Origin: Chelativorans alearensis
Lineage (GTDB): Bacteria; Pseudomonadota; Alphaproteobacteria; Rhizobiales; Rhizobiaceae
Length of the DNA stretch: 64,000 nt
NCBI RefSeq assembly: GCF_010993735.1
Contig: NZ_WQNI01000003.1
Coordinates: forward strand, 248,001 to 312,000
Direction of reading: 5' to 3'
How positions within the stretch are numbered: position 1 is the first letter of the stretch; every line of letters begins with the position of its first letter. The translations under genes were made by a program, and so were the position numbers. Below, piece by piece: positions 12,938 to 41,779 of the stretch. The notes under the pieces are model-generated. The model was given only the letters and a program-made list of their open reading frames with translations. It searched no databases and was not told where the DNA came from.

Positions 12938-13053
12938 TCCCGCGCGACCATCCGTATGTGAGCGCATTCCGTCGTACATAAAGGCTGTAAGAGATTCCGG
13001 CGCTTCCGGCGATCCTTGTCCTGACTTCCACATGATCGTCAGGGCAAGAATTC

Positions 13054-14431: not shown

Positions 14432-14441
14432 AGGACATCCC

Positions 14442-14750: not shown

Positions 14751-15019
14751 TGGACTCTCAACAGAATATTGCGGGTTTCGAGATTCCCGTCCATCGCGCG
14801 CTGACCGAGCCGATCCTGTTGGGCGGCGCGCCGCGCGCCGTCGCCATCCTTAACGGGACGCTGGCGGCGACGATCGGTCTCGGCCTCCAGCAGTGGATTG
14901 CCGGCATCGTTCTGTTCGTCGCCGGGCACACACTCAGCGTCTTCGCCGCTAGGCGTGATCCAAACTTCCCGCCTGTGTTCGCCCGCCATCTGCGTCAACG
15001 GGGATGGTGGCAATGCTGA
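14750..15019 (+). CDS. trbD: Conjugal transfer protein TrbD (VirB3 type)
   Basis: The 89-residue protein has one long hydrophobic stretch (residues about 30-65) and the VirB3/TrbD opening FEIPVHRALTEPILLGGAPR. It is a small inner-membrane channel part that works with the VirB4-type ATPase encoded next, whose start overlaps its end. Confidence 0.9.
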   Translation: MDSQQNIAGFEIPVHRALTEPILLGGAPRAVAILNGTLAATIGLGLQQWIAGIVLFVAGHTLSVFAARRDPNFPPVFARHLRQRGWWQC

Positions 15020-18161: not shown

Positions 18162-18178
18162 CGATCCGGGAGAAGGCG

Positions 18179-19522: not shown

Positions 19523-19525
19523 TCC

Positions 19526-21266: not shown

Positions 21267-21276
21267 GGTGAGGGCC

Positions 21277-24436: not shown

Positions 24437-24921
24437 ATTCGGAAAGACGCTGCAAAATCAGGCGATACATACGGTGGAACTCCCTTATCGAGGCGAGCGC
24501 AGTGTGCAGGTCGATGATGCCGGAGAGGCTGAATTGACAGAATGTTCGACAGAGAGGTGCGGGTTCCGTAGGCGCAGCCCACCCCATCTGGCGCGGCATT
24601 CGCGCTCTGATGTCCTTTTTTCAAGCGTATTTTCCAAGGAGAATGGCTCGGGTATCCGATCACCCGAGGTTCTGGCTCTGCAAACACATATCGGTGGGGA
24701 CGTGGCGCGGGACGGTAGTGAACAAGCTCTGATGCGCGGATTGGTTGCCGCATGTCCATGAGTCCGTCCGAGGCTGCTCCTCTCTTACAACGGGCATCAG
24801 CGGTTGCCGGCAAGTACCCGTCTCAATCACGGCAGCAGGCGAGTATTGCCGCTCCATTGCCTGATTGCTTCTGATCCTCCATAAGCGCTCCGGTCAGGAG
24901 TGTGGAGAAGGATGGCGGCCT
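24437..24921. other. Gene-free stretch before the polysaccharide genes
   Basis: About 485 bases without a gene I can support. CTCGGGT/ACCCGAG at 24647-24668 forms a 7-bp hairpin without a T run. Short frames on both strands lack ribosome sites and recognisable motifs. Confidence 0.4.
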
Positions 24922-25851
24922 GTGACGCGCGAACCAACTGTAGCGATTTTGCTGGCGACCTATAATGGCGCGCCGTTTCTTGAGGAGCAGTTGGATTCCA
25001 TCGCTCGCCAGGACTTGCCCTTCATCGACGTGTGGGCAAGTGATGATGGATCGACAGACGGCACCCTTGAGATATTGGATGCTTGGCGCGCCCGATGGTG
25101 CAAGGGCGATTTTCAGGTCATTACCGGACCCCGGCAAGGCTACGTCGAGAATTTTCGTCGGATGATGGCCATGAAGTCCGTTGACGGCGCGTACATTGCT
25201 TTCAGCGATCAGGACGACGTCTGGGATCCAAACAAATTGTCCTATGCCGTAAAGAAACTTGATGAGGTTCAACCACAGGCTTTGGCTATGTACTGCGGTC
25301 GAACGAGGCTCATTGGAAGGGATGGCTCTGCAAGAGGGCTGTCTCCCCTTTTTGCTCGACAACCCGACTTCGGCAACGCAATCGTCCAAAGTATTGCTGG
25401 AGGGAATACGATCGTACTCAACAGAGCAGCTTTCGATCTCGTGCATGAGAGCTGTCTGCGGACCAGTTTCGTTAGCCACGATTGGTGGTGCTATCAAATC
25501 GTTTCGGGGGCAGGTGGCTCAATCATCTACGATCCTATGCCAAGGATCAGCTACCGCCAGCATGGCGGTAATCTTATCGGCGAGAACCAGGGTTGGGTTT
25601 CTCGTATGAAGCGCTTGCAAGCGCTGGCATACGGCAGATTCGCTGACTGGAATGCCGTTAACATCGATGCACTGGACAGGTGCAGAGATCTGCTCGACGA
25701 AAATGGACGCCAGACGCTGGACGGTTTCAAAGCCGCGCGTAAAGGGGGGCCGCTGCAGAGCCTTCGCTCTCTATGGGCGCACCATATCCACCGACAAACA
25801 GCGGTCTCGGACGTGGCGCTTTATCTTGCCGCAGCTTTTGGAAGACTGTAG
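24922..25851 (+). CDS. Family 2 glycosyltransferase (rhamnosyltransferase-like)
   Basis: The protein of about 309 residues has the GT-A fold marks of rhamnosyl-type GT2 enzymes: [10 protein letters not shown] at residues 7-16, DDGSTDGT near residue 40, and the acidic FSDQDDVW near residue 95. It would transfer a nucleotide sugar, plausibly dTDP-rhamnose, to a lipid-linked glycan at the cytoplasmic membrane face. I choose the GTG at 24922, with GGAGAAGGA nine bases before it; an upstream TTG at 24865 would add 19 unrelated residues. The gene ends 29 bases before rmlA in the same direction. Confidence 0.85.
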
Positions 25852-25880
25852 TCAATATACTTCGATCTTTGGAGGGTAGT

Positions 25881-26762
25881 TTGAAGGGAATTATTCTTGC
25901 AGGGGGAAGCGGCACACGGCTCTACCCACTGACCTTGGCCGTCTCGAAACAGATTCTGCCTGTCTATGACAAGCCAATGATATATTATCCCTTGAGCACG
26001 CTCATGCTCGCCGGGATTCGCGAAATCCTGATCATCTCGACGCCGCGTGACCTGCCGGCCTTTAGAGAGCTTCTGGGAACAGGCGAGCAGTTCGGTGTCA
26101 CATTCTCTTATGCGGAACAGCCTCAACCGAATGGCCTTGCCGAAGCTTTTATCATCGGGAGCGATTTCATCGGCTCCGACCCTGTTTCGATGATCCTCGG
26201 TGACAACATCTATTATGGTGTTGGATTGCCGGCGCTTTGTGCCGAGGCGATCAAACAGGAGCGCGGTGCCACTGTCTTCGCCTACCATGTAGACGACCCA
26301 CAGCGCTATGGCGTCGTCGACTTCGATCGCGAAACCGGGTTGGCCCGGTCGATCGAGGAAAAGCCCGAGAAGCCGAAGTCCAGTTGGGCTGTTACGGGTC
26401 TCTATTTTTACGATAATGACGTCGTGGATATCGCTACCAGCATTAAGCCATCGGCACGCGGCGAACTTGAGATCACGACCGTCAACAATACATATCTCGA
26501 GCGTGGCAATTTGAGTGTTCAGCAACTGGGTAGAGGATATGCCTGGCTCGACACCGGCACCCATGACAGCCTGCACGAAGCTTCCTCCTTCGTACGGACC
26601 ATTGAGCATCGGCAGGGAATAAAGATCGCCTGTCCTGAAGAGATTGGCTTCGAGATGGGCTGGCTCAGCGCGGAGCAGGTGCTGGAGCGCGCGAAAGACC
26701 TCGGCAAAACGGAATATGCCGCTTACCTGAAGCGGCGCGTGTCGGAGAAGGAGACTAAATGA
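25881..26762 (+). CDS. rmlA: Glucose-1-phosphate thymidylyltransferase
   Basis: The 293-residue protein makes dTDP-glucose from dTTP and glucose 1-phosphate, the first step to dTDP-L-rhamnose. The nucleotide loop [11 protein letters not shown] (residues 8-18), [17 protein letters not shown] and ILGDNIYYG are all present. The start is a TTG at 25881 preceded by GGAGG; it gives the standard RmlA length, and the longer ATG frame would add 36 unrelated residues. The stop overlaps the rmlC start (ATGA). Gene order here is rmlA-rmlC-rmlB-rmlD. Confidence 0.95.
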
Positions 26763-27310
26763 TCGAGGTGCGTCCACTCGCCCTTGATGGCGTGCTTGAG
26801 ATTATCCCACAGAAGTTCGGGGATGAGCGAGGCTATTTCAGTGAAACATATAACCGAGCAAAGTTCGCCGAACAGGGCGTGAGCATCGAGTTTGTCCAGG
26901 ACAACCAATCCTATTCCGCTCGCAAGGGCGTGTTGCGCGGTCTTCATTACCAACTGCCGCCGCGCGCGCAGGACAAGCTCGTGCGCGTGCTGAAGGGGCG
27001 TATCTTCGATGTGGCGGTGGACATCCGGCGCGATTCCCCCACCTTCGGCCGCTGGGTAGGGCTGGAGCTTTCCGAAGAAAGATGGAACCAGATCCTGATG
27101 CCCAAAGGTTTCGCCCACGGTTTCGTGACACTGGAGGAGTACACGGTCGTTGCCTACAAGGTGAGCGACTATTACTCACCTGAGCATGAGCGCGGCATCC
27201 GTTACGACGATCCGCAAATTGGGATAGATTGGCCGGTAAAAGGTCTTGAGGTTCAGCTCTCGAAGAAAGATACAGAAGCACCTCTTCTTCAGGATTCCGA
27301 GACGTTTTGA
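26759..27310 (+). CDS. rmlC: dTDP-4-dehydrorhamnose 3,5-epimerase
   Basis: The 183-residue cupin-fold enzyme epimerises dTDP-4-keto-6-deoxyglucose at C3 and C5. [23 protein letters not shown] (with the catalytic His) and the [10 protein letters not shown] block are present. It overlaps rmlA by four bases and is followed 26 bases later by rmlB, so all four genes should be one transcript. Confidence 0.95.
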
Positions 27311-27336
27311 TCCAGCGTGACACCAAAGTGGGGACA

Positions 27337-28407
27337 ATGAACATTCTGGTAACCGGAGGGGCAGGTTTTATCGGTTCTGCCGTATGCCGCTTGCTTGTGG
27401 GGAGAGAGGGCGTCAAAGTCATCAACCTCGACAAGCTCACCTACGCTGGCAATCTGCAGTCTCTGCGCCCGATTGAGAACGCCGCAAACTATAAGCATTA
27501 CCCTGTCGACATATGCGATGACGCGAAGGTACTCGAAATCTTGCGTCGCGAGGATATCGATACGATCATGCACCTGGCCGCGGAAAGCCATGTCGATCGT
27601 TCAATCGACGGCCCGGGCGCATTCATAGAGACGAATGTGGTCGGCACGTTCCGGCTGCTCAACGCATCGCTCGCACATTGGCGAGAACTGTCGTCCGAAA
27701 GGCAAGAGCGGTTCCGCTTCCACCATGTTTCCACAGACGAGGTCTTTGGCGATTTGCCCTTCGACGAGGGCGTCTTCACCGAAGACACGCCCTATGCCCC
27801 ATCTTCACCTTATTCCGCCTCAAAGGCAGCATCGGATCATTTTGTGCGAGCTTGGCACGAGACCTACGGTCTGCCGGTCGTTCTTTCCAATTGCTCGAAC
27901 AATTACGGGCCATTCCATTTTCCAGAGAAGCTAATCCCACTGGTCATTCTCAACGCGCTCGACGAGCAGCCGTTGCCCGTCTACGGCAATGGCACCAACG
28001 TAAGGGACTGGCTCTTCGTGGAAGATCACGCCCGCGCGCTCGAGCGGGTCGTGACCATGGGCAGGGTCGGCGAAAGTTACAACATCGGCGGCAGGGCCGA
28101 ACACAGCAACCTATCAGTCGTGCAGACAATCTGCGATGTTCTGGACACCAAGTGTCCGCGCGCGGGCGGAAAGAACTATCGCGAGCTGATTACCTTCGTC
28201 GCCGATAGGCCGGGCCATGACCGGCGCTATGCGATCGACCCTGCGAAAATCGAGCGCGAGCTCGGCTGGAAGGCCGAGGAAACCTTCGAGACCGGGCTCG
28301 CCAAGACGATCGACTGGTACCTCGCCAATGAATGGTGGTGGCGGCCGATCAGGGCCGAACGCTATCAGGGCAATCGGCTTGGCGTGATGCAGGCTAAAAC
28401 GGTATGA
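27337..28407 (+). CDS. rmlB: dTDP-glucose 4,6-dehydratase
   Basis: The 356-residue extended short-chain dehydrogenase carries GGAGFIGS (residues 7-14, NAD binding), the active-site block STDEVFGDL and the YSASK catalytic pair. It turns dTDP-glucose into the 4-keto-6-deoxy sugar. The ATG at 27337 places the NAD motif at the usual position; the GTG-ATG region upstream gives only a few extra residues. Its stop overlaps the rmlD start (ATGA). Confidence 0.95.
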
Positions 28408-29291
28408 GGATTGTCGTCACCGGCCGGCAAGGACAGTTGGTCCAAAGCATGGCCGAGCGGGCAGCATCGCGCCCGAATGTTGAACTGATCGCGCTCGGCC
28501 GGCCGGAGCTCGACCTCCTGCGACCGGCGACGGTGAGGCCCGCCATCGCGGCGGCCCGGCCCGACATCGTGGTTTCCGCTGCCGCCTATACGGCGGTCGA
28601 CCAAGCCGAGGATGAGCCTGACATTGCTTTCAAGGTGAACGAGGAGGGCGCCGGCGAAGTAGCGCGGGCGGCGCGGCTGGCAGGCGCCCCGGTCATCCAT
28701 CTTTCGACCGATTATGTCTTTTCGGGCGAGGCGGACGCGCCCTATGACGAGACGGCGTCAACGGGCCCCAGAAGCGTCTATGGCAGGAGCAAGCTTGCCG
28801 GCGAGGCGGCGGTGGCCGCTGCCAATTCCGAACATCTGATCCTGCGTACCGCCTGGGTCTACAGCCCCTTCGGCAGGAACTTCGTCAAGACGATGCTGAA
28901 ACTGGCCGAGACGCAGGACGCGCTCAATGTGGTCGACGACCAGCTGGGCAATCCCACGTCAGCGCTGGAGATCGCCGAGGCGATCTTCGCCGTGATCGGA
29001 CGCTGGCAGCGCGGGCCGGGCCGGCCGGGCGGCGTCTTCCATTTCGTCGGCACGGGCGACACCTCCTGGTGCGGCTTCGCACGGCACATATTCCGCGCCA
29101 GTGAAGGGCTTGGCGGCCCTGTCGCCACGGTGAACGCGATCACAACGGAGGAATTTCCGACCAGGGCCGTGCGGCCAAAAAATTCCCGCCTCGACAGCGG
29201 CCGCTTTGCCGCCAAATTCGGCTACCGCGCACCGGAGTGGGAGGAGAGCACCAGAGCGGTCGTCCGGCGGCTATTGGAGGGCGGGCATTGA
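28404..29291 (+). CDS. rmlD: dTDP-4-dehydrorhamnose reductase
   Basis: The 295-residue enzyme reduces the 4-keto group to finish dTDP-L-rhamnose. GRQGQLVQ (residues 7-14) replaces the common Gxx[13 protein letters not shown] is intact, and the catalytic YGRSK pair is present. It overlaps rmlB by four bases and ends the rml set; a 189-base gap follows before the methyltransferase/glycosyltransferase fusion. Confidence 0.94.
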
Positions 29292-29480
29292 TGGGTGGAC
29301 CGGGTGGATTAAGGTTGCGGCCGTCAGACGACGACGGTATCGGATCGGAGCATGACTACACGCTACGACTTCCAGCCCCGCCGCCGGCCGCATCGGCGTA
29401 GTCGTGCTCGGGCGTGCACCCTCAGGCACCGGGACGCTGAGGTGGCCCCTGAGCCTGCAGCCGTACAGTGGGGACGCATT

Positions 29481-31853
29481 ATGACGAGCGCAGTTCCGAG
29501 TTTCCAAGCCCGACCGATGAAGACATTGCGCGAGTTGTACGCTGAGCACAACGGCAAGGTGTCGGACAAATGGACGATTTATCTCGAGACCTATGAGCAA
29601 CTCCTTTCGCGGTTCCGGAATCGGCCTGTCCGCCTGCTCGAGATCGGAGTGCAGAACGGCGGTTCGCTTGAGATCTGGAGGAAATATTTTCCCAAGGCGA
29701 AGGTGATCGTCGGATGCGATATCAACCCGGATTGCCGAAAGCTGACCTTCGGCAGCAAGAAAATCGCCCTGATCGTCGGGGATGCCAATTCGGACGAGGT
29801 GGAGCACGAAATCCTCGCCCAATCGCCGCAGTTCGATATCATCATCGATGACGGATCGCACAAATCCTCCGACATAGTGCGCTCCTTCGCGCTCTATTTC
29901 GGGCACCTAGCCGAGGGCGGGATATATATCGCAGAGGATTTGCACTGCAGCTACTGGCAAGAGTTCGAGGGCGGACTTTACGATCCTTATTCCTCAATGT
30001 CCTTTTTCAAGCGTTTGCTCGATATTCTAAATCATGAGCATTGGGGCACGCCGCATGAGCGCGTAGACGCACTTGCCGCCTTTGCCAACCGGTATTCCAC
30101 CACCTTCGACGAAACGCTGCTTGCGTCGATTCATTCGGTGGAGTTTGTCAATTCTGTGTGTGTACTTACAAAATGTGCGCCGATCCGCAATGGATTGGGC
30201 AAGCGCAAGATCGCCGGCGGGAAGGCAGTCGTCTATGGCGGGATTATTCCGCTCGACGGCAGCAAGTCCAGACCGTCCGACCAAACGCAGAATATCTGGT
30301 CGCTGGGCCACAGGACGCTCGAAGAAGAGATTGTGGCCAATCGGAAACTGGTTGATCTGCAAAGAGGCGAGATTGCACGCATGCAGGTTGATCTAGAGGG
30401 GAAGGTCCGCCAGATTGAGGCGCTGGGCGCCCAGGTGGCATCAAAGGAAGCGGAGGTCGAGCGCCAGTCTGCAGAATTCAGCACTCGTTTCGAAGTGCTG
30501 GGCGCCCAGGTGGCATCAAAGGAAGCGGAGGTCGAGCGCCAGTCTGCGGAATTCAGGGCCCGTCTCAACGACCGTGAGGAAGAGATTGAGGCGCTCAATC
30601 AGGAACTCTCTCATTCGCAGGAACAAGAGAATCGATTGCGGTCGGTCATCGAAGGCATTCACCGAAGCACGTCATGGCGCGTGACGAAGCCGCTGAGGGC
30701 AGCAAAGCGACTGCTGGCCGGCCAAAGACACCGCAACGGCCCATCGAATGATGGGAACGGTGGTGGTGCTAGCGGTAGCCTTCAACGGGGCCATGAGGAT
30801 ACGCCGGGCTCTGACGCTCCTGTCAAAAGCGCGGACAATCAAGATACCCGTGCCGCCACTCACCCCGCCTTGCCACATATGTGTGCAGAAAAGCCGCTGG
30901 TATCCGTGATCATTCCCGTAAAAAACGGATTGCCGCAGTTCAAGCGCGTAATCGATATGGTCTCCAGCCAGGAATTAGACGCAGGATTCGAAATCATTGT
31001 TATCGACTCGGGTTCGAAGGATGGTTCCAAGGAAATCATTCCGGCTGGCGACCCGAGATTCAGGCTTATCGAGATCAAGCCCGCCGCATTCGGGCATGGT
31101 AGGACAAGAAATCTCGGCGTTCGGGAAGCTAGAGGCGAATTCTGTGCCTTCCTCACGCATGATGCGACTCCAGTCGACAGATTCTGGCTGCGGGAATTGG
31201 TCAAGCCGCTCCTGGAGGACGATCAGGTTGCCGGGGTCTTCGGTCGTCACATAGCGTATGAGGACGCAACACCTTTCACGGCTTGGGAACTCAAGACACA
31301 CTTCACTGGCTTGAGAAACTGGCCAAAGATCTGGATCAAGGATGCTCGGGAATATTCACGCAATCAGGGGATTCGCCAGGTTTTTCATTTCTATTCCGAC
31401 AACTCGTCCTGCCTGAGAAAATCGGTGTGGGAACGCTATCCCTATCCGGACGTGGATTTTTCGGAAGATCAATTGTGGGCAAAGCAGATCGTGGAAGCGG
31501 GCTTTCGAAAGGCCTTTGCCTGGGACTCTGTCGTGTACCATTCCCACGATTATTCGTTGTGGGAGAGGGTGCAGCGCAGTTATGACGAGGCGCGAGCACT
31601 CAATGAATTGTTCGGGTACAAATTGTGCCCTTCCAAACGAGAGTTGATGCGGCAGTCGTTCAGGACCAGTGCCCGCGATGTCATGCTAGCACTCAGGAAT
31701 GGCTGGATTCTTTCTCATCCTGCGGCCACCCTCAAGCGTCCGCTCGACAATCTGGCGCGGCAGATCGGGTATTATCTCGGAACCACACGTTCGACTTTCG
31801 CACAGAAACATGCCACGGCCTTGTCCCGCGACAAGCAGCTGCAGGCGAGATAG
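29481..31853 (+). CDS. Methyltransferase - coiled coil - GT2 glycosyltransferase fusion
   Basis: The 790-residue protein has three parts. Residues about 15-230 are a class I SAM-dependent methyltransferase (LLEIGVQNGGSLEIW, then VGDANSDE and DIIIDDGSH). Residues about 283-390 are a charged coiled coil that contains a 25-residue tandem duplication. After an STSWRVTKPLR block and a low-complexity linker, residues about 472-700 are a family 2 glycosyltransferase (VSVIIPVKNG, IIVIDSGSKDGS, then SEDQLWAKQI). The ATG at 29481 follows GGGGAC. It would act on the glycan built by the neighbouring enzymes; the arrangement recalls chain-capping methyltransferases with a coiled-coil spacer such as WbdD, which is an analogy rather than a detected homology. 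Confidence 0.82.
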   Translation: MTSAVPSFQARPMKTLRELYAEHNGKVSDKWTIYLETYEQLLSRFRNRPVRLLEIGVQNGGSLEIWRKYFPKAKVIVGCDINPDCRKLTFGSKKIALIVGDANSDEVEHEILAQSPQFDIIIDDGSHKSSDIVRSFALYFGHLAEGGIYIAEDLHCSYWQEFEGGLYDPYSSMSFFKRLLDILNHEHWGTPHERVDALAAFANRYSTTFDETLLASIHSVEFVNSVCVLTKCAPIRNGLGKRKIAGGKAVVYGGIIPLDGSKSRPSDQTQNIWSLGHRTLEEEIVANRKLVDLQRGEIARMQVDLEGKVRQIEALGAQVASKEAEVERQSAEFSTRFEVLGAQVASKEAEVERQSAEFRARLNDREEEIEALNQELSHSQEQENRLRSVIEGIHRSTSWRVTKPLRAAKRLLAGQRHRNGPSNDGNGGGASGSLQRGHEDTPGSDAPVKSADNQDTRAATHPALPHMCAEKPLVSVIIPVKNGLPQFKRVIDMVSSQELDAGFEIIVIDSGSKDGSKEIIPAGDPRFRLIEIKPAAFGHGRTRNLGVREARGEFCAFLTHDATPVDRFWLRELVKPLLEDDQVAGVFGRHIAYEDATPFTAWELKTHFTGLRNWPKIWIKDAREYSRNQGIRQVFHFYSDNSSCLRKSVWERYPYPDVDFSEDQLWAKQIVEAGFRKAFAWDSVVYHSHDYSLWERVQRSYDEARALNELFGYKLCPSKRELMRQSFRTSARDVMLALRNGWILSHPAATLKRPLDNLARQIGYYLGTTRSTFAQKHATALSRDKQLQAR
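30423..30557 (+). repeat. 75-bp tandem repeat inside the coiled coil
   Basis: Bases 30423-30482 recur at 30498-30557 with a single mismatch, a 75-base period that adds exactly 25 residues (LGAQVASKEAEVERQSAEF plus six variable residues). The near identity at DNA level shows a recent in-frame duplication. Twenty-five residues equal two heptads plus one hendecad, so the coil could continue through it. Confidence 0.9.
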
Positions 31854-31870: not shown

Positions 31871-33151
31871 ATGCTGATGAGAAATCTTTCCAGGTTTGCG
31901 CATGTCACGAGGCGAGACGGGTGGCGGGTCGCGACCCGCAAGGCTGTGTCATACGCGTTCCGGACGATCCCTAGCGCTGTTCAAGGCAAGCAGGACGTCA
32001 TTGGGCATTACGAATTCATCCTTGGCGAAGAACAGGGTCTTGGGCTGAAGCTAGCCCCCGAGAATGTCCCGGAAGGGTCGATGACATGGATCATCCCCGA
32101 CTTTCATGCCTCTTCAGGCGGGCACATCAACATCCTGCGTATGATGCGGCTCTTGAAGGAGCGTGGCTTTCCCAATCAGCATGTCGTTGTAATGGAGCCA
32201 CATCGATGGTCTTCCATCGAGGAGGCCCAAGCAAGCCTCAACCATTCCTTCGGAGATTATGGGATTACAGTGTCGCTCGGTATTCGTTCGATCGAGCCTT
32301 GCCACTATCTCGTCGCCACAGGATGGCAAACCGCCTATTGGGTGGCGAAGTATCGTGATGCTATTCACCGCCTGTATTTTGTTCAGGATTTCGAGCCCGC
32401 TTTTTACGCCCATGGCAGCGAGTACAACTTCGCAGAGAATACCTACAAACTTGGCATGACCGGAATTACCGCCGGTTCATGGCTGGCGGAAAAGCTGAAC
32501 AAGGAATACGGAATGACTACATTCCCGTATTCTTTTGCCTGCGATCTCGACCTCTACAAGCCGCATAAAAAGCGACCTAATTCGAAAAAACACATCCTGT
32601 TCTATGCAAGGCCGGTCACGCCGCGGCGCTGCTTCGAAATGGGCTTATTGGCGCTGACACGTGTCTGCGAGAGGGATCCTGATGTTGCGGTGATCTTTGC
32701 CGGTTGGGATGTCAGCGGCTTTGAGATCCCTTTTCATCATCTTAATGCGGGCACTGTTCCTGTCGAGCATCTGCCGGATCTCTACTCACAATGCGATGTG
32801 GCTTTGATTCTGTCGTCGACAAATCTCTCGCTTTTGCCACTGGAGGTCGCTGCTTGCGGGTGCCCCGTCGTCATCAACAAGGGGCCACAGTCAAGCTGGC
32901 TCTTGTCCGAGGAAGAGGCTGCTTATTGCGATATGAGCGTGGAGGGGATAGTGGGCGCGTTGACCGACGTTCTGGAAAACCCCGAAAAAGCCGCTAGTTT
33001 GGTGGAAGCGGGGCTGGCGAGGGCCGGTGCGAGCGCATGGAGTCGGGAGGCCGACAGACTAGCTGCGTTTCTTCCTACGATCAGTGTCAATAAGCACGTT
33101 AATGACGAGGATGAACAGATGTTAGATACCAGAGAGTCGGTGGAACGTTAG
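31871..33151 (+). CDS. WsaF-like glycosyltransferase (GT4-type fold)
   Basis: The 426-residue protein resembles the WsaF family of rhamnosyltransferases. It has an N-terminal part with IIPDFHASSGGHINILRMMR, YFVQDFEPAFYAHGSEYNFA and TYKLGMTGITAGSWLAEKLN, and a C-terminal nucleotide-sugar half with ILFYARPVTPRRCFEMGLLAL and LLPLEVAACGCPVV. It likely adds a sugar, plausibly rhamnose, to the polymer at the membrane face. I start it at 31871 (MLMRNLSRF); the longer frame overlaps the previous gene in a region that shows no coding character in this frame. It follows the fusion gene by 17 bases. Confidence 0.78.
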   Translation: MLMRNLSRFAHVTRRDGWRVATRKAVSYAFRTIPSAVQGKQDVIGHYEFILGEEQGLGLKLAPENVPEGSMTWIIPDFHASSGGHINILRMMRLLKERGFPNQHVVVMEPHRWSSIEEAQASLNHSFGDYGITVSLGIRSIEPCHYLVATGWQTAYWVAKYRDAIHRLYFVQDFEPAFYAHGSEYNFAENTYKLGMTGITAGSWLAEKLNKEYGMTTFPYSFACDLDLYKPHKKRPNSKKHILFYARPVTPRRCFEMGLLALTRVCERDPDVAVIFAGWDVSGFEIPFHHLNAGTVPVEHLPDLYSQCDVALILSSTNLSLLPLEVAACGCPVVINKGPQSSWLLSEEEAAYCDMSVEGIVGALTDVLENPEKAASLVEAGLARAGASAWSREADRLAAFLPTISVNKHVNDEDEQMLDTRESVER

Positions 33152-33203: not shown

Positions 33204-34676
33204 ATGAGAGCGAAGATACTGTTGCTGAGTGCCGCTGCGGCAATCAGCAGTTGTACCACTAGCACAACAATTTCACAGAGGGATCTGACGAGCAGGCACC
33301 TACCTCTTGTCGTCCTCTGGATTGCCGTAGGCGCTGTATGGATCGCCTCGACCGCCTTCATGGCGACCGTGCCGCTTTCCGGCGATGAGCTCTTTTACTC
33401 CTCCGGGGCAAAATTCATCGCGGGCTTTCTGACAGGCGACATCACCTTCGCGGAAATGAAGACCAATGTCGTGGGTTTCGGCTGGTTCACGCCCGGCGTT
33501 CCCATCGTCCTGACGCCGCTTTTCCTGTTCGATGCGACGCCGCATGTTTCAGCCGTTAGGATTTACGCTGGCGCCCTGGCCCTTATCCTGTGGTTCTGGA
33601 GCCTTTGGGAGGTAAATCGCGCCTTTGGACGGCAATACACTCTTGCGCTACTCGTGTTCCCCACGCTCGACGTAACTTGGCAGCTCTTTTCCGCCACCAT
33701 TTGGGGCGACCTTCCTGCTGGGTTGCTCCTTGTCATTGTCTTCGTCAGAACATGGACGCTGGGCTGTCGAAACAGTCCCTCGCCACGCGACATTATCGCC
33801 CTCGAACTCATTCTCGCTGCGGCCTTCTACTTGCGCGGGAGCCTACTTGTCGTCGCCGTGGCGGTGAATGTCTTCCTGCTCGCCCTGCCTTTTATGACCG
33901 GCCAGTGGCGTTCGGGTCTCCATCGGGCAGCGGTTCTAGCTCTCGGATCTACCGTTTTCGCAGCCGTAGTCGCGCCATGGAGCGCGATGGCGAGCCGCGA
34001 ACTTGGTGGGACCGTAATCTCCACCTCCACGCCAGCCCTGTCTTTCGGCATCACCTTCGGCAAGGCCGACAGGCTTTGCTTTGGGCCCTGCCCCGGCAAG
34101 AACATCTGGATCGAGGGTGCTCGTTTTTCGCAAGCCTATGGAGCTGCAAATGGCATCAGCGAGCTTGAGGCTCAAAAGCGGATGGCAACGAACGCAACCC
34201 GCGACCTGACGCTAAAGGAATATACCAAACGCGTTCGAAGGAATTTGAAGCAGTTCCTACTGGTGCCGACAGGGTTTGTACGTGATCGTTTCCTGCCAGG
34301 AAGCCGCCTTGAACTGCCTGACCCGATGGTGAGTGTAGCGGGAACCGTCGCCGCATTCTGGACGGGGCTGCTCTATTTCCCCGCCCTGCTCGCGCTCATA
34401 TTAGCAAACGGCATTGTCGTGACGGGACGAGCTGCGCAGATCGAAAGCCTGTGCATCAAGATGTTCACGCTCTGCCTGTTCGTTCAGCCCTTCATCCACC
34501 CGAGCCATTCTCGCTATTGGCCGACCTTGGGGCCATTGATGGCGCTCTCCGCAGCATTCCTGCTCAAGATGATCGCCACGAGAAGCAGTCGAGATGGAGC
34601 GCTGTCGCTCGTGGCGATGCAATGGCTTTACGTTGCGGGCGCTGGCGGCGTGCTTCTAGCCGTCCTTCTGGTGTAG
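33204..34676 (+). CDS. Polytopic membrane glycosyltransferase, GT-C (ArnT/GT39-like)
   Basis: The 490-residue protein has about ten to twelve membrane segments and, in the first periplasmic loop, the acidic pair LSGDELFY (about residues 58-65) used by GT-C enzymes that take sugar from a polyprenyl-phosphate donor. A C-terminal SRYWPTLGPLMAL segment is also typical. It would decorate a glycan on the periplasmic side. The GT2 and GtrA proteins encoded on either side would supply and flip the lipid-linked sugar. The exact family is uncertain. Confidence 0.7.
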   Translation: MRAKILLLSAAAAISSCTTSTTISQRDLTSRHLPLVVLWIAVGAVWIASTAFMATVPLSGDELFYSSGAKFIAGFLTGDITFAEMKTNVVGFGWFTPGVPIVLTPLFLFDATPHVSAVRIYAGALALILWFWSLWEVNRAFGRQYTLALLVFPTLDVTWQLFSATIWGDLPAGLLLVIVFVRTWTLGCRNSPSPRDIIALELILAAAFYLRGSLLVVAVAVNVFLLALPFMTGQWRSGLHRAAVLALGSTVFAAVVAPWSAMASRELGGTVISTSTPALSFGITFGKADRLCFGPCPGKNIWIEGARFSQAYGAANGISELEAQKRMATNATRDLTLKEYTKRVRRNLKQFLLVPTGFVRDRFLPGSRLELPDPMVSVAGTVAAFWTGLLYFPALLALILANGIVVTGRAAQIESLCIKMFTLCLFVQPFIHPSHSRYWPTLGPLMALSAAFLLKMIATRSSRDGALSLVAMQWLYVAGAGGVLLAVLLV

Positions 34677-34709
34677 CTCATCGGCATCGCCGATAGAGAA
34701 GGCAGGTCT

Positions 34710-35165
34710 TCATTTGGCTTTCGGCTCGGATCGCGCAAAAATCCAATTCCTCATCACGATGAAGCTCAGGAGCGGAATGAACGCTGACGTAGCCACGGTG
34801 CCCCAAACCGGATGCGCTCGCATCTCATGAACGACGAATTCGACACTCCACCAACTGAATGCAATGCCTGCAACTGAGAGAAGGGTGAAGCGAAATAACT
34901 GACTGAATGTGCGCTGGTGAACCGAGAATGTGAAGCCACTTTGGCCCAGGAAGGAGACCGCCATTCCAGCCACATATCCCAACACCGAGGCAGTGACCGG
35001 CTCTAACATGCCGCTGACCATCAGTGCGTTGGAGACCGCCAGATAGGTCGCTGTCGCGGCGAATCCGACGAGCGAAAACCGGGACAGCAGGGCAAGCAGT
35101 GTATCGCGCCGGAGCCAGTTCAAAGGCAGTGAAAAAACTCCGCTGCTACTTTTCGGCCCGGACAT
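34710..35165 (-). CDS. GtrA-family membrane protein
   Basis: The 151-residue protein has four membrane helices and the GtrA signature (SRFSLVGFAATATYLAVSNALM; RNWIFARS at the end). GtrA-like proteins are thought to move polyprenyl-phosphate-linked sugars across the inner membrane. It is convergent with the GT-C gene (33-base gap) and overlaps the methyltransferase gene encoded upstream on its own strand by 20 bases. Confidence 0.85.
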   Translation of the reverse strand: MSGPKSSSGVFSLPLNWLRRDTLLALLSRFSLVGFAATATYLAVSNALMVSGMLEPVTASVLGYVAGMAVSFLGQSGFTFSVHQRTFSQLFRFTLLSVAGIAFSWWSVEFVVHEMRAHPVWGTVATSAFIPLLSFIVMRNWIFARSEPKAK

Positions 35166-35892
35166 AATATTGAGCTCCTAATGGCAGCCGGGAAAACACC
35201 CTGTCGAGGGTCCTCATGGCCGACCCGGCGGCCGGCACAGAAAGGATAAACCGAGAAGTTACGTTTCGAAACCCAGCTTGCGTAAATAGCCCAGCGGTAG
35301 TCTCAGCGCGAAGCAGAACCGCGTCCTCGTCAAAAGGACAGTTGTTGACCGCCCGTAGCGTCAGTGGGTTTCGCGGATTGTGCTCGAACACCAAGGCAAG
35401 TCCGCCTGCCCGCAGAACCCGTCGCATCTCGCTGGCGAATTCCGCCCATTGCGCGGGATCGACGTGGTGCATCACGCAGACGGTGAAGGCGAGGTCAAAT
35501 GCACCGTCGTCGTAGGGCAGCCGTCTGCCGTCGTAGGCCTGATAGTCTACACTAGGATGCCGTTGTTTCGCCCGTTCGATCGACGAACTTGAAACGTCAA
35601 CCCCCGAGAGGGACCCAAGGCTTGGGGCAAGCAGCCCATGGAAATTCCCCACGCCGCACCCGACATCAAGCGCCCTCACTTGGTCGGGTGGCCCTAAGCT
35701 GGAGCGGCACAGGTCCAGGATGTAGGCAGCCTTAACGTGGGTGAAGAAATCTACATCCAGCCCCGTGAAGGCGACCGAACGATTCACGGTCTCCGAATAG
35801 TTGTCGCCATAGGAATCAAAGAGTTCGGGCGTCTTGTCTCGATCTTGCTTCACGCCGATGTCCATCAACTGCCAACCAATTGGGAAGGACAT
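35146..35892 (-). CDS. SAM-dependent methyltransferase (class I)
   Basis: The 248-residue protein has the class I fingerprint ALDVGCGVGNF (motif I, near residue 74), GVDVSSSSI, and LAFTVCVMHHVD after it. It is probably a small-molecule or sugar methyltransferase. An internal ATG at 35865 (MDIGVKQ) is an alternative start. It is translationally coupled to the gtrA-like gene and divergent from the GT2 gene, 62 bases away, suggesting one modification locus. Confidence 0.82.
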   Translation of the reverse strand: MSFPIGWQLMDIGVKQDRDKTPELFDSYGDNYSETVNRSVAFTGLDVDFFTHVKAAYILDLCRSSLGPPDQVRALDVGCGVGNFHGLLAPSLGSLSGVDVSSSSIERAKQRHPSVDYQAYDGRRLPYDDGAFDLAFTVCVMHHVDPAQWAEFASEMRRVLRAGGLALVFEHNPRNPLTLRAVNNCPFDEDAVLLRAETTAGLFTQAGFRNVTSRFILSVPAAGSAMRTLDRVFSRLPLGAQYYVRAEK

Positions 35893-35954
35893 AACCCGAA
35901 GCGCCTAGAATAGCGAGCCGCTACCTGCTAATCAGACCCAATTTTGGGGAAGCT

Positions 35955-36983
35955 GTGGTGGCTATGATGATTGCGATATCGGTGATTGTGCCTGTTTACG
36001 CTGGTGAGGCATATCTCGAAAGGCTCGCCGCAGACATCGATGTTCTGCGTAACCTATTCAAGACAACCGGAAGTGACATCTCTCTTCACGAACTGATATT
36101 CGTTGACGACGGCGCTCGGGACAAGTCCCCCGGAATCTTAGATAAAATTGCCGCGGCGAAGTCGTGGGTCACCGTCCTGCACCTGTCCCGCAATTTCGGT
36201 CAGCATGCCGCTACGATCGCGGGAATATTGCACAGCTCAGGCGATTGGATCGTCACGCTCGACGAGGACCTTCAACACCCGCCGGCCCGTATCATCGATA
36301 TGCTGCGCAAGGCGGCTGAGACGAACAGTGACGTGATCTATGCCAAGCCAACTGGCGCCGTCCACCAGACGCTTGCCCGCGATCTCTCTTCTCGCGCCTA
36401 CAAGCGCATGATGGAGTGGATCACCGGGAATCCCAACTTGCGGCGCGTCAACAGCTTCAGGTTGCTTCGTGGCTCAATCGGCCGCGGGGCGGCAAAAGTA
36501 TGCCAGCACGACACCTATTTTGACGTGACTCTCTCCTGGTTCACTGACCGCGTCGAGACGGTGTTGATGCCGCTGAAGGATGAGCGCTACATAAGCACTG
36601 GCCAGAGCGGTTATAGGTTGCGCTCGTTATTGTCGCACGGCCGGCGCATGATTGCATCGAGTCAGTTGAAGATACTCCGGCTGGGGGTGCTGTTCGGTCT
36701 GATCGTCCTTGGCGTAAGCGCCGCCAGTAGTGTCGCACTCGTCCTCATCCGTCTGCTCATGCCCGAATTGATCGCAATTCAGGGATGGGCGTCGCAAATC
36801 CTCGTGACGACATTCTTCGGCGGCTTCTGTATTCTCCTGCTTGGCATCCTGCTGGAATACATGTCCATTGTGGTCATGCGGTCCAACGGACGACCGCTGT
36901 TTTTTTCCGTTGATCGGTCATCCGATGAACGGCTGCGGGCGGGCCTGCGTCCGAGTCAGGCAGCAGCCCAACAAGAGACCTAG
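35955..36983 (+). CDS. Membrane-anchored GT2 (GtrB/polyprenyl-phosphate sugar synthase type)
   Basis: The 342-residue protein has a GT2 domain (VIVPVYAGEAYL, IFVDDGARDKS, LDEDLQHPP) and two C-terminal membrane helices at about residues 238-300, the plan of bactoprenol glucosyl/mannosyl transferases. It would load a sugar on undecaprenyl phosphate for GtrA to flip and the GT-C enzyme to use. Starts at GTG 35955, GTG 35958 and ATG 35964 are in frame; GGGGAAG lies just upstream and fits the second or third best. Confidence 0.83.
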   Translation: MVAMMIAISVIVPVYAGEAYLERLAADIDVLRNLFKTTGSDISLHELIFVDDGARDKSPGILDKIAAAKSWVTVLHLSRNFGQHAATIAGILHSSGDWIVTLDEDLQHPPARIIDMLRKAAETNSDVIYAKPTGAVHQTLARDLSSRAYKRMMEWITGNPNLRRVNSFRLLRGSIGRGAAKVCQHDTYFDVTLSWFTDRVETVLMPLKDERYISTGQSGYRLRSLLSHGRRMIASSQLKILRLGVLFGLIVLGVSAASSVALVLIRLLMPELIAIQGWASQILVTTFFGGFCILLLGILLEYMSIVVMRSNGRPLFFSVDRSSDERLRAGLRPSQAAAQQET

Positions 36984-37098
36984 ATGCCGTAATGGGCCGG
37001 CGTCTCATGAGTAGCCAGTTGGGTGGCTGTCCCTCAGAATGATGATGTTTGGAACGAGGTCCGAGCGATCGGCCTCAAGCATCATGAGAGGAACAGCC

Positions 37099-37830
37099 AT
37101 GGAGTATTATGCAGGAATCGACGTCTCGCTAAAAGAGAGCAGCGTGTGCGTGGTCGACGCGACCGGCAAGTTGGTTCGCGAGGTCAAGGTAGGCAGCGAG
37201 CCTGAATGCCTGGTCGGGTATTTTGATCAACTGGACTTTCCGGTAGAGCGCATCGGCCTTGAAGCGGGGCCGTTGTCCCAATGGCTACACGCGGCTCTCG
37301 TTGCTGCGGGTCATGAGGTGGTTTTGCTGGAAACGCGGCATGTGAAGGCGGCGCTTTCGGCGATGACGGTGAAGACCGACCGCAAGGATGCACGGGGGAT
37401 CGCGCAACTGCTCCGCATGGGGTGGTATCGTCCGGTCCACGCCAAATCGTCGCCGGCCCAGGACACTCGGGCTCTATTGGTTGGCCGCAAGCTTCTGCAA
37501 TCCAAGCTGCTCGACGTCGAGCTCAGCATCCGGGGTATCCTGCGCGGCTATGGATTAAAGGTCGGCGAAGTCAGCCGAGGGCGTTTCGAAGCGCGCATCC
37601 GCGAACTGATTGCAGGGCATGCGATATTGTCGATGGTGATTGACGCGATGCTAACGGCGCGAGCAGCGCTGTGGAGCGAATTTACGAAGCTGCACCGCGA
37701 GATGCTCAGGATCGCCCGCGCCGACAAAGTTTGCCAACGGCTGATGAGTGCGCCGGGTGTCGGTGCCTTGGTTGCGCTGACCTACCGCTCCGCGGTCGAT
37801 GATCCAGCCCGGTTCGAAAAGTCCAGTATA
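37099..37830 (+). mobile_element. IS110-family transposase, interrupted
   Basis: The frame from 37099 reads MEYYAGIDVSLKESSVCVVD (first Asp of the DEDD site), GLEAGPLSQWL (Glu) and TVKTDRKDARGIAQLLRMGW (two further Asp), then the Tnp20 domain up to APGVGALVALTYRSAVDDP and RFEKS. There homology ends: the last 30 or so residues of the frame come from the IS5-family fragment that begins at 37831. The C-terminal catalytic Ser region is lost, so the transposase should be dead. The left end of the element probably lies in 36984-37098. Confidence 0.85.
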
Positions 37831-37950
37831 GGCTCAGGACTCATTGATCAAAGCCAGAAGATGATCGTCGCGGCGATGCAGATGGCTGAGAAGAAGGTGT
37901 GGGCGCATCGGTCATAGCGTGTAGCGATGCGCCGCCAGTCCTTGACCCGC
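37831..37950 (-). mobile_element. IS5-family (IS427-like) transposase 3' end fragment
   Basis: On the minus strand 37848-37943 reads KDWRRIATRYDRCAHTFF, continues SAICIAATIIFWL, then stops. This is the characteristic C-terminus of IS427-group IS5 transposases. GGCTCAGGACTCATTGATC at 37831 is likely the terminal inverted repeat side. Only about 32 codons remain; beyond about 37950 the frame no longer matches. Confidence 0.75.
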
Positions 37951-39342: not shown

Positions 39343-40257
39343 TCAGGCCGCCCCGAGCACAGCTCTTCCGATCCCCTCGCGGAAAGGAGTTCGTGGCGTC
39401 CAGCCAAGAACTTCGCGCGCCTGTGCTATATCCAGGCCGCTCACATCGACGTCGGTCCTGCGCGCGTTTGTGTAGTTTCGCTCGAAGCGGTAGCCCGTAA
39501 CCTCCTCTACAGTCTCTATGACGTCAATCACGGACTTCATCTCACCGCTTCCAACGTTGAGGACAAGCTGCGGCCTATACTTCAAATGGATTGCAGCCAT
39601 AATCGCCTCGATGACGTCCTCGACATAGATATAGTCGCGCATCGCCAGGCCGTCGCCCAGTATGCGGATGGGAAGTCGCTTCCTGTACTGGTCGAGGATT
39701 GCGGGGATCAGGCCCTGACCCTTGCGGAATTCCTGGCCCGGCCCAAACGGATTGGCAAGTCGCAAGATGACATATTCGAGACCATCCACGTGGCCATGCA
39801 TCTGGATGTATTTCTCGACGATCAGCTTGGTCAGCCCGTGGGAGCTTATCGGGTTGGTCGGGGCGCTCTCGGGTGTGGGGACGGGAGCACCGGGACCATA
39901 GACCGTCCCACCCGAAGAGAGGAACAAATAGCGCTTGACGCGCGCAATGATGCAATTCTGCAGGAATTCGACATGCGGGAGAACGTTCTCCTTGATGTCC
40001 GCCACTGCGTGGTCGTTCCCGAGACCCGGGCTGGAGGTGCTGACAAGTTGCACCACCGTGTCTATGCCCTGCAGCGATGAGGCCATCGCTATCGGCTGAC
40101 GCAGATCGGCTTCGACCAACTCGACTTTGCCTTCGAACTCTTCAACAAATGATTTATCATATCGTCGGGAAACGGCGCGAACGGAAGCTTCGGCGGCAAT
40201 GAGGCATCGTACGAGATGTCGTCCGATGAAGCCGTTGGCACCGTAGACACCGATCAT
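39343..40257 (-). CDS. NAD-dependent epimerase/dehydratase-like protein with HxxxK in place of YxxxK
   Basis: This 304-residue extended SDR protein has the NAD motif GANGFIG (residues 6-12), SSGGTVYGPG near 114-123, and the RDYIYVEDV block of UDP-glucose epimerase-like enzymes. The catalytic Tyr-x-x-x-Lys reads His140-Gly-Leu-Thr-Lys144, so the usual proton donor Tyr is replaced by His (codon CAC). The start at 40257 overlaps the ABC ATPase stop (ATGA) and gives a normal N-terminus; an ATG nine bases earlier has its ribosome site too close. Product and substrate are unknown; a nucleotide sugar is likely. Confidence 0.82.
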   Translation of the reverse strand: MIGVYGANGFIGRHLVRCLIAAEASVRAVSRRYDKSFVEEFEGKVELVEADLRQPIAMASSLQGIDTVVQLVSTSSPGLGNDHAVADIKENVLPHVEFLQNCIIARVKRYLFLSSGGTVYGPGAPVPTPESAPTNPISSHGLTKLIVEKYIQMHGHVDGLEYVILRLANPFGPGQEFRKGQGLIPAILDQYRKRLPIRILGDGLAMRDYIYVEDVIEAIMAAIHLKYRPQLVLNVGSGEMKSVIDVIETVEEVTGYRFERNYTNARRTDVDVSGLDIAQAREVLGWTPRTPFREGIGRAVLGAA

Positions 40258-40991
40258 GTCTTGCATCCCTTCCCGTCAAAAAACTCTCCCAACATGCCGA
40301 AAAAGGTTGCACTGCCCTTCTCTAGTTCCAGCATCTTGTTGCACGTCTTCTTCAACAGCGCATGGTTATGGCTGGCAAGCACGATGATGCCGGCCTTCTC
40401 GGCGCGTTCCGCCATACGCTTCTTCGCCTTTTCCTGGAAGGCGGGGTCGCCGGCGCCGATCCATTCGTCCATGAGCAGGATCTCCGGCTCCAGGCTGGTC
40501 GCAACCGAGAAAGCAAGGCGGGCGGCCATCCCCTGGCTGTAGCTCTTGAAGGGCAGGTCTATGAAATCGCCGAGCTCGCTGAACTCGATTATCTCCTCCA
40601 TGCGGGCCTCGATCTCCTGCTCGCTCCAGCCGTTGATGAGTCCCCTGAGCACGATGTTGCGCCGGCCAGTCGCTTCCGGCCGGAAACCGAGCCGGATATT
40701 AAACAGCGCGTCGACGCGGCCGTTGATTTCCACGCTGCCCGAAGTCGGCTCAAAGACGCCGTAAAGCACCTTCAGAAGCGTCGTCTTGCCCGCTCCATTG
40801 GGGCCGACGAGGCCCAGCCGGTCGCCGGCCTTCAGTTCGAAACTGACGCCGTCAAGCGCGGTGACGAAGCGGGTGCGGCCCTTGCCGACGATGCGCCCGC
40901 CGGTCGGCATGCGCTTGTCGCGCGGCGCCAGAGTCAGTTTTTGGCGCAGGCGGTAGGTGAGGCTCAGATTTTCGGCGCGGATTGAAACCAT
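40254..40991 (-). CDS. Polysaccharide ABC exporter ATPase, KpsT/Wzt type without C-terminal domain
   Basis: The 245-residue ATPase has Walker A VGPNGAGKTT, the signature YSQGMAARLAFSVA, and Walker B-like EILLMDEWIGAGD of the ABC-2 polysaccharide and teichoic acid exporters. It ends soon after the ATPase core (MLGEFFDG), so it lacks the carbohydrate-binding C-terminal domain of E. coli O9a-type Wzt. It starts within the permease stop (ATGA), and its own stop overlaps the epimerase start. It would drive export of the finished lipid-linked polymer. Confidence 0.9.
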   Translation of the reverse strand: MVSIRAENLSLTYRLRQKLTLAPRDKRMPTGGRIVGKGRTRFVTALDGVSFELKAGDRLGLVGPNGAGKTTLLKVLYGVFEPTSGSVEINGRVDALFNIRLGFRPEATGRRNIVLRGLINGWSEQEIEARMEEIIEFSELGDFIDLPFKSYSQGMAARLAFSVATSLEPEILLMDEWIGAGDPAFQEKAKKRMAERAEKAGIIVLASHNHALLKKTCNKMLELEKGSATFFGMLGEFFDGKGCKT

Positions 40992-41779
40992 CACAAAACG
41001 AACACGACCTGTTTGCGCAAGCGGCCGAGCAGCAGGAGCGCGACGGCCCACAGGCTGGCGGTGATCGCGCCACAAAGGATGAAGGAGCGCACAGGCACGT
41101 CTCCTGAGAGGATCGGTATGCGCACGATCTCCAGGAAATAGGTGAAGGGATTCGAGTAGTAGAAGGTACTGCGCACGCCGCCGCCGCCCGTGTATGCCCA
41201 GAAGACAGGCGTCAGAAACATGCCGATGCGCGTCAGGTTGGAGACGATGAACTGGCTGTCGGGGAAGTAGGCGCCGAGAAACGCAAAGAGGATGATGGCG
41301 GCGGGCGCCGTCGCCAATATCAGCACTATCGCCAGGGCCGACCACGCCCACATCACGGTAAGCGATGTGCCGCTTATTACCAAAATTGCGAGACAGCCGA
41401 TAAATGCATAGCCGGCCCGGATGACCGACTGCGTGGCAAGCCGCATGACATAGACCGAGAGCGGCAGCGTCGTACCCTTGATGAAGCTCTCCTCGCGCAC
41501 GAAGAGGGACACGCTCTGGGAGATTGTCTCCATGATGTAGAACCAGACCAGCAGCCCGGTTGCCACATAGGCCTCGTAATTGGGTATGCTTGCGCCGCGC
41601 TGAAAGACGAAGATGAAGGTTCCAGCAAACGCCAAGTAATTGATGAGCAGCCACAATGGCCCGAGCGCCGTGCGCCGGTGCTGGTCGCCGATATCCTCGT
41701 GCGCCAGCGCAATCCACACGCGCCGCATACGCAGGCCTGCATGGATGTCCTTCAAGGCGATCTTGATGGTTGCAAACAT
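40991..41779 (-). CDS. Polysaccharide ABC exporter permease, KpsM/Wzm type
   Basis: This 262-residue ABC-2 permease has about six membrane helices (AHEDIGDQHRRTALGPLWLL near the N-terminus, FYYSNPFTYFLEIVRIPIL near the C-terminus). With the ATPase encoded next it forms the inner-membrane exporter for a capsule-like or O-antigen-like polymer. It is the first gene of a minus-strand operon: permease, ATPase, epimerase, then sulfotransferase. Confidence 0.9.
   Translation of the reverse strand: MFATIKIALKDIHAGLRMRRVWIALAHEDIGDQHRRTALGPLWLLINYLAFAGTFIFVFQRGASIPNYEAYVATGLLVWFYIMETISQSVSLFVREESFIKGTTLPLSVYVMRLATQSVIRAGYAFIGCLAILVISGTSLTVMWAWSALAIVLILATAPAAIILFAFLGAYFPDSQFIVSNLTRIGMFLTPVFWAYTGGGGVRSTFYYSNPFTYFLEIVRIPILSGDVPVRSFILCGAITASLWAVALLLLGRLRKQVVFVL

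Follow-up and report, generated by a model that had tools for sequence, protein, structure and literature searches.

The window analysed here is a 64,000-nucleotide stretch of the genome of Chelativorans alearensis (contig NZ_WQNI01000003.1, positions 248,001 to 312,000), and its gene at 29481..31853 encodes a 790-residue protein in which an S-adenosylmethionine (SAM) methyltransferase domain (MT), a long predicted coiled coil and a family 2 glycosyltransferase domain (GT2) are joined in one chain. We read this protein, with a rough probability of 0.45, as a fused terminator-polymerase that acts on a surface polysaccharide containing rhamnose. Chain building at the inner membrane would fall to the GT2 domain and a separate WsaF-like family 4 glycosyltransferase (GT4), and the coil would stand off the membrane from its end with an SWR motif, at the site of the growing point, and keep the MT ~17 nm away. 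Once the non-reducing end was long enough to reach the MT, the terminal rhamnose would be O-methylated, probably at O2 or O3, and growth would stop. Because the MT would be reached only at a sufficient chain length, the length of the coil would set the minimum chain length, and a 25-residue duplication within the coil, worth 3.7 nm, would have raised it. Since the ATPase of the exporter lacks a cap-binding domain, capping would stop growth without licensing export, unlike in E. coli O9a.

Architecture of the fused protein

The open reading frame (ORF) runs from 29352 to 31853 on the forward strand, and translation from the ATG at 29481 gives 790 residues with no internal stop. The parts of the gene are as follows.

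29481..31853, forward strand: gene for the 790-residue MT-coil-GT2 protein (open frame, Pfam, AlphaFold2)
29526..30191, forward strand: MycE-like, probably metal-dependent sugar O-methyltransferase domain, residues 16-237 (Pfam, fold, alignment)
30318..30662, forward strand: single predicted helix, residues 280-394, 115 residues or ~17 nm at 0.149 nm per residue (AlphaFold2)
30417..30491, forward strand: 25-residue coil unit, copy 1 (sequence)
30492..30566, forward strand: 25-residue coil unit, copy 2 (68/75 bases identical to copy 1)
30666..30698, forward strand: STSWRVTKPLR motif at the coil end, residues 396-406, a proposed membrane-proximal anchor (conservation)
30699..30884, forward strand: predicted disordered linker, up to residue 468 (blocks at a predicted local distance difference test score, pLDDT, of 33-45)
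30900..31787, forward strand: GT2 domain, residues 474-769 (Pfam, AlphaFold2)

Pfam places Methyltransf_24 at residues 53-153 and Glycos_transf_2 at 475-649, both over the curated cut-off, and finds no kinase domain in the window protein. The fold predicted by AlphaFold2 for the single chain, built on a 32-sequence alignment (mean pLDDT 76.6, predicted template modelling score 0.49), agrees with the Pfam domains, so that the claim of an earlier note on this DNA, a SAM methyltransferase, a coil and a GT2 domain in one protein, is borne out. The coil of about 100 residues given in that note is present, and its length is rather ~115 residues in the model. The note had also proposed a structure prediction as a check, with a disordered or discontinuous coil as the adverse outcome; the model instead has one unbroken helix at 280-394, with 10-residue block means of pLDDT 69-82 across residues 281-390. 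The MT sits at the distal, N-terminal end of the coil, as in terminators, and may act as one.

The closest solved relatives of the MT in both sequence and fold searches are MycE and SpnK, the latter named demethylmacrocin O-methyltransferase in the sequence matches. The best Foldseek matches were 3sso, 3ssm and 8ia9 (E ~1e-13), and WbdD was not among the matches listed in these searches. The active-site residues of MycE are Tyr208, Asp275, His278 and Asp304, the two Asp being magnesium ligands (PMC9275233). With an offset of 20 for the deposited chain, a value that we infer, D124, H127 and D153 of the window MT align with D275, H278 and D304 of MycE, suggesting that the Asp/His/Asp active site is conserved. 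ThnM1, a relative of MycE, methylates rhamnose at O2 to make 2-O-methyl-rhamnosides, and the geometry of the 2,3-diol matters (PMC9275233); WsaE methylates rhamnose and thereby caps a rhamnan (PMC2943079). The MycE-family fold and metal-site residues, with ThnM1 and WsaE as rhamnose-methylating precedents, are thus consistent with a terminator acting on rhamnose.

The 25-residue unit in the coil, reported in the earlier note, does occur twice in tandem (30417-30491 and 30492-30566), a duplication that Tandem Repeats Finder does not list at score 40. Its copies are identical at 68/75 bases and 21/25 residues, and so few differences (seven bases, four residues) suggest that the duplication is fairly recent. 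Each unit can be read as three heptads plus a four-residue stutter, and the register walk along the window coil, with two +4 shifts (1 to 5 to 2), is as expected for such units. Because a stutter leaves a coiled coil continuous, the rod was probably extended by ~3.7 nm through the duplication and stayed unbroken. The case for a continuous window coil is made by the predicted model, the register walk and the comparative length test described below.

In free relatives, which carry the MT and coil alone, the SWR motif is followed by a basic/hydrophobic tail, as judged by eye; the window model is unreliable at that stretch. The motif may anchor the end of the coil near the membrane. A function was also sought in the motif itself and this was rejected, as the motif ends coils on other methyltransferases too. 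A coil with an S-x-SW[RK]xTxPLR tail is found on a Methyltransf_11 protein (L021:3614-4708; loci in the comparison carry L numbers), and the same coil and tail are found on Methyltransf_24 proteins of a more distant branch (L026:7815-8864 and L112:339-1349). From its recurrence on these other methyltransferases, the coil with its tail looks like a module that moves between polysaccharide enzymes.

Coil lengths across the family

Coil length was taken as the distance in residues between two tryptophans, one in an N-x-W-S stretch ahead of the coil (W273 in the window protein), the other in the S-x-SWR motif (W399). The first set comprised 55 sequences, of which 43 had a measurable coil; 38 of the 43 had the Trp anchor, including four measured by a looser end motif. 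The lengths span 33 to 153 residues, and 24 of the 38 equal 6 modulo 7 (16/29 after merging equal-length rows with >50% coil identity). Among integer periods 2-15, period 7 was the most concentrated (R 0.47, P 0.0014 against jitter of up to 3). The length of 153 belongs to L130, which, like L128 of the same genome, has its MT-coil gene in two frames within the MT domain; the next longest coil is 132, and without L130 the count on the common class is 23/37.

When the lengths were placed on a tree of the MT domains (43 sequences), they changed at least 29 times, and the class modulo 7 changed 16 times against 22.3 under the null (sd 1.8, P 0.0022), or 13 times against 18.9 with the Trp-anchored rows alone (P 0.0018). 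Moduli 5, 6 and 8-11 were without effect on this tree, and moduli 3, 4 and 12-15 were counted without a null, modulus 3 giving 17 class changes, near the 16 of modulus 7. Many branches of the tree are weakly supported (22/52 drawn open). Later sequences, from plasmid records and more genome sets, comprised 28 MT rows, nine known and 19 new. Six of the 19 were scorable, and each of them equals 6 modulo 7 (41, 55, 76, 76, 97 and 104); a looser end rule was used for the 55, and the 76s come from plasmid copies that are almost identical, leaving five independent. One of the 13 unscored new rows, L159, is without a coil. By eye, the coils of L078, L108 and L130 contain internal repeats.

Coil-length changes that are frequent and keep their class modulo 7 beyond chance favour the fused terminator-polymerase. 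Together with the 115-residue helix in the single-chain model, the heptad phase of the family points to a long continuous coil, and the measured lengths support the view that family coils behave like a phase-constrained continuous rod of evolvable length. A further idea, which we put forward tentatively and with the odds against it, is a ruler without a gatekeeper: a rod fused to a polymerase would set length by stopping growth alone, with the exporter blind to the cap, and the rods of the family would change mainly in whole coiled-coil steps via small duplications, giving a natural allelic series from ~5 to 20 nm or more. Among open-licence papers, we found no heptad-length analysis of such coils in print and nothing on point about terminal O-methyl sugars in rhizobia.

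Relatives, exporter and competing readings

By sequence comparison, the window gene is a modular fusion. Homologues of its GT2 part in L020, L021, L022 and L073 are 66-73% identical and have no MT-coil fused to them, and the same loci keep a WsaF homologue (64-67% identical); among named organisms, the GT2 part finds its best relatives in Aquibium, Mesorhizobium and Phyllobacterium. The MT-coil part shares 50-54% identity with Mesorhizobium proteins, which either stop shortly past the SWR motif or run into other glycosyltransferases. Thirty MT-bearing ORFs from 29 loci (MT above 200 bits) were compared: 15 run on for >150 residues past the motif, so that the fusion arrangement recurs, ten stop within 25 residues (7-23 residues after), and five were filed without the motif. 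Those continuing ORFs that were scanned have glycosyltransferase domains past the motif. One of the five is L050:8977-10737, with two tandem MycE-like MT domains, the second followed by a short coil and the SWR motif; the adjoining Wzt has a cap-binding module. The MT-coil part had matches in 25/394 family genomes and, in the genus of G323, in 28/146 genomes (cut-offs E 1e-20 and E 1e-50, respectively); the phylum set gave 4/398, and two other wide sets gave 10/399 and 5/369. The pairing of these two particular halves was seen only in the window protein: among 72 loci, the window's own alone has both halves strong in one frame, and the only full-length match among the matches listed for 101 genomes is its own genome.

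Related MT-coil proteins are also found on plasmids of E. coli (four records listed, one of them examined) and Enterobacter cloacae. In L136 (NZ_CP139180.1) and L141 (AP022136.1) a cassette has the order rml, permease, ATPase, MT-coil-glycosyltransferase (1181 residues), GT2, GT2, with an MT-coil ~41% identical to that of the window; the ATPase of L136 carries a cap-binding module. A Klebsiella plasmid cassette, L137 (NZ_CP036195.1), has a free MT-coil protein and an ATP-binding cassette (ABC) permease annotated in two pieces.

The neighbours of the fused gene in the window are listed below.

24865..25851, forward strand: separate GT2 gene (Pfam)
25842..26762, forward strand: rmlA-like nucleotidyltransferase (Pfam)
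26759..27310, forward strand: rmlC-like gene (sequence inspection, homologues in relatives)
27307..28407, forward strand: rmlB-like gene (sequence inspection, homologues in relatives)
28404..29291, forward strand: rmlD-like gene (sequence inspection, homologues in relatives)
31871..33151, forward strand: WsaF-like GT4 rhamnosyltransferase gene (Pfam WsaF_C and WsaF_N; open frame from 31625, start by homology)
39343..40266, reverse strand: NAD-dependent epimerase/reductase (Pfam; homologues in sister loci)
40254..40991, reverse strand: Wzt-like ATPase, 245 residues, no C-terminal carbohydrate-binding domain (family search on residues 2-245)
40991..41779, reverse strand: Wzm-like ABC-2 permease (Pfam)

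Upstream of the fused gene the order is rmlA-, rmlC-, rmlB- and rmlD-like (25842-29291). Downstream follow the WsaF-like GT4, a gene without a Pfam match, a GtrA-like gene, a second methyltransferase and a GT2, an IS110 transposase, a candidate sulfotransferase (its Pfam match is just over the cut-off), the epimerase, the Wzt and the permease. The rhamnose genes and the WsaF homologue in the locus favour the terminator-polymerase. The ABC-2 exporter that the earlier note had placed in the same locus is real; it stands ~8.4 kb downstream and on the opposite strand (40254-41779).

Within 33204-36983, the methyltransferase at 35146-35892 is flanked by the gene without a Pfam match, the GtrA-like gene and a GT2 judged by inspection to be of GtrB type. 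The set may serve to modify side chains, and may be a competing source of a methyl cap. The IS110-family transposase (37039-37917) lies between the glycosyltransferase part and the exporter part. The IncP-type conjugation genes traG, trbE, trbL, trbF, trbG and trbI are present at 10907-22494, just upstream of the polysaccharide locus, which may therefore ride on an integrated mobile element.

In all terminated O-polysaccharide examples, a carbohydrate-binding module (CBM) attached to the ATPase reads the cap (PMC11231755). In the window Wzt, ABC_tran is the sole match above cut-off, and the cap-binding module PF14524 was absent from a search of the whole genome (5.7 Mb, 99.87% complete), a search that gave matches in 3/14 control genomes, two over cut-off. 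No second or cap-reading Wzt was found elsewhere in the genome among the candidates scored (150/242, limit E 1e-25). Since the ATPase has no cap-binding domain, a cap could not gate export in the style of E. coli O9a. A transporter without a CBM is described for Klebsiella O1/O2, and in O2a chain extension is coupled to export (PMC11231755). The exporter type is the main departure of the window from the textbook scheme, and it also supports an alternative in which a cap controls neither export nor length.

The same MT-coil family goes with both exporter types. A Wzt-like ATPase scored >100 bits in 15 of 27 scanned MT loci, and L136, unscanned, has one by annotation. When these loci were divided beforehand by ATPase length, all eight of one group (L023-L026, L031, L032, L040 and L042) lack the module and all seven of the other (L034, L036, L037, L038, L039, L043 and L050) carry it, as does L136. 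Longer coils went with the module-less Wzt (Mann-Whitney P=0.006, 8 against 9 loci), a link that we do not claim because six of the nine loci are the window plus Mesorhizobium-type, which confounds it with kinship; the lengths of some Mesorhizobium loci entered via duplicate rows of other loci, and L038 and L039 have no Trp anchor.

Sister loci with the same GT2 and WsaF-like pair were compared by gene content inside the fetched stretches. L073, from a genome of the same genus, has the pair with a module-bearing Wzt (Wzt_C E 4e-34) and a distinct Methyltransf_24 protein encoded on its own. Phyllobacterium L021 has the pair, a module-less Wzt and a free Methyltransf_11-coil-STSWRITGPLR protein, and Anoxybacillus tepidamans L048 has the GT2 (51% identical), a WsaF homologue (42%) and a Wzt that passes the module cut-off (35.1 against 30.4 bits). 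The epimerase is 64-68% identical in L020, L021, L022 and L047 and 35% in L073. A loose motif scan of ORFs of at least 100 residues found no motif-coil protein in L019, L020, L022, L047, L048 or L073.

An alternative that we consider possible, on balance rather doubtful, is that the MT decorates the polymer or its linker by internal or stochastic O-methylation, that the coil is a tether or oligomerisation scaffold, and that length comes from coupling of synthesis to export, the situation in Klebsiella O2a, where the transporter is likewise without a cap-binding module (PMC11231755). The module-less Wzt of the window and of eight MT-coil loci, the genome-wide negative and the flexible linker between coil and GT2 predicted by AlphaFold2 fit this alternative, as do the independence of WsaE methylation from length in vitro (PMC2943079) and the role in making the linker that has been proposed for genes of E. 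coli group 3 capsules named wsaE and likened here by name (PMC10433991). It accounts less well for phase-conserving length changes, which exceed what an unconstrained tether needs, and for members of the family beside a module-bearing Wzt (seven loci and L136), the classic terminated layout.

It is improbable, in our view, that the MT caps and the coil serves merely as oligomer and membrane anchor, with length set by the ratio of capping to polymerising rates or by the stoichiometry of the complex. Such a role would suit coils that range from 33 to 153 residues in the family, and from 40 to 100 among the seven loci with a cap-reading Wzt. The length of the coil is reported as a ruler in E. coli O9 and Klebsiella O12 (PMC11231755), and the repeated whole-heptad changes suggest a tuned length, although any continuous coiled coil tolerates heptad-sized indels, so that conservation of phase does not show measuring. 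That the protein is a recent chimera, a free MT-coil and a free GT2 joined via a disordered linker with no coordinated function yet, would agree with the occurrence of both halves apart in relatives and of their fusion solely at the window locus among the loci compared, and is very unlikely given the intact MT active-site residues and SWR motif and the recurrence of the arrangement in 15/30 ORFs.

Several observations weigh against the terminator-polymerase that we prefer, and the foremost doubt concerns termination of the chain by the methyl group. The window Wzt lacks the domain reported for all terminated examples (PMC11231755), and the second methyltransferase (35146-35892, Pfam) could make another cap or the sole one. 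The equivalent of MycE Tyr208 falls in a loop that is missing from the window MT (numbering inferred), so we class the MT as a relative rather than a member of the MycE-type enzymes, and the choice between O2 and O3 is a guess. AlphaFold2 predicts a disordered stretch at 394-468 (blocks 401-470 at pLDDT 33-45), leaving ~60-70 disordered residues between the coil and GT2, and the glycosyltransferase would not be rigidly fixed at the coil end. The hydrophobic periodicity of the window coil, which peaks at period 3.5 and was tried as proof of a coiled coil, does not rise above shuffles (P=0.31) and was dropped as support; a spectrum peak at 3.4-3.7 is present in only 12/31 family coils (near-duplicates included). 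With one row for each of six clusters by coil identity, the length test is not significant (median P 0.088), the tree version being the better control. L154, which the rule could not score, measures 46 by hand (4 modulo 7), and the window coil, at 126, is 0 modulo 7 and off the common class; minus both 25-residue units it is 76, which falls into the common class and matches the length in the E. coli plasmid relative. Finally, a continuous coil need not be a ruler.

The known coil rulers are paired with a cap-checking transporter, making length control and export control hard to tell apart. The window locus and its sister loci, which share the GT2/WsaF-like pair and have other or no detected coil terminators, would allow the two to be separated, and the presence of the MT-coil family beside Wzt with and without the module would likewise help. 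Heptad-stepped coil lengths make the question of a measuring rod testable via natural variants.

Comparison with known systems

Coil terminators, some of them fused to glycosyltransferases, are an established design in ABC-dependent O-polysaccharides (PMC11231755). The earlier note had suggested that capping and polymerising are fused here; a cap-type MT and a GT2 do share one chain, and the arrangement is not new, as WbbB and O7 ORF6 already combine cap enzyme, coil and polymerase in one published protein, with WsaE as a further precedent. WbbB of Raoultella/Klebsiella O12 has terminator, coil and polymerase in one polypeptide, the terminator being a Kdo transferase (PMC11231755). ORF6 of K. 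pneumoniae O7 shares with the window protein an N-terminal methyltransferase, a central coil, a C-terminal GT2, a dTDP-rhamnose donor and an ABC-dependent pathway; its own features are a kinase, a CBM-like domain, two GT2 modules and a methyl-phosphate cap (PMC11231755), whereas the window protein has a MycE-like MT, no kinase that Pfam could find, one glycosyltransferase and a Wzt without a cap-binding domain.

WsaE of Geobacillus stearothermophilus, compared here by description and not by sequence, is an O-methyltransferase joined to rhamnosyltransferases, with a WsaF partner, rml genes and Wzm/Wzt (PMC2943079, PMC3898925). WsaE has two glycosyltransferase domains, and the window protein has one by both Pfam and AlphaFold2. 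When 41 genomes from the family that includes Anoxybacillus tepidamans were searched with the full-length window protein, two matched (E <= 1e-20), through the GT2 part only.

WbdD of E. coli O9a/O8 resembles the window protein in its catalytic domain and coil; its coil ends in a membrane-associated helix, to which the SWR-motif end of the window coil may correspond (PMC3482155, PMC11231755). The ten free MT-coil-motif proteins resemble this reported layout. WbdD recruits a separate polymerase, and its capping gates export via the Wzt module; the O9a form has a kinase, and O8 has a methyltransferase-only homologue (PMC3482155). The window MT has no detected kinase partner domain and is closest to MycE and SpnK. 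With these and ThnM1 it has the fold and the metal-site residues in common; they are free enzymes that act on natural products, and MycE has a loop without a counterpart in the window MT.

Such loci may have been noticed before, in a survey from 2019 that dealt with terminators and CBMs and is cited by PMC11231755. Relative to the literature read, what is new is the design with a module-less Wzt and the heptad-stepped variation of coil length across the family.

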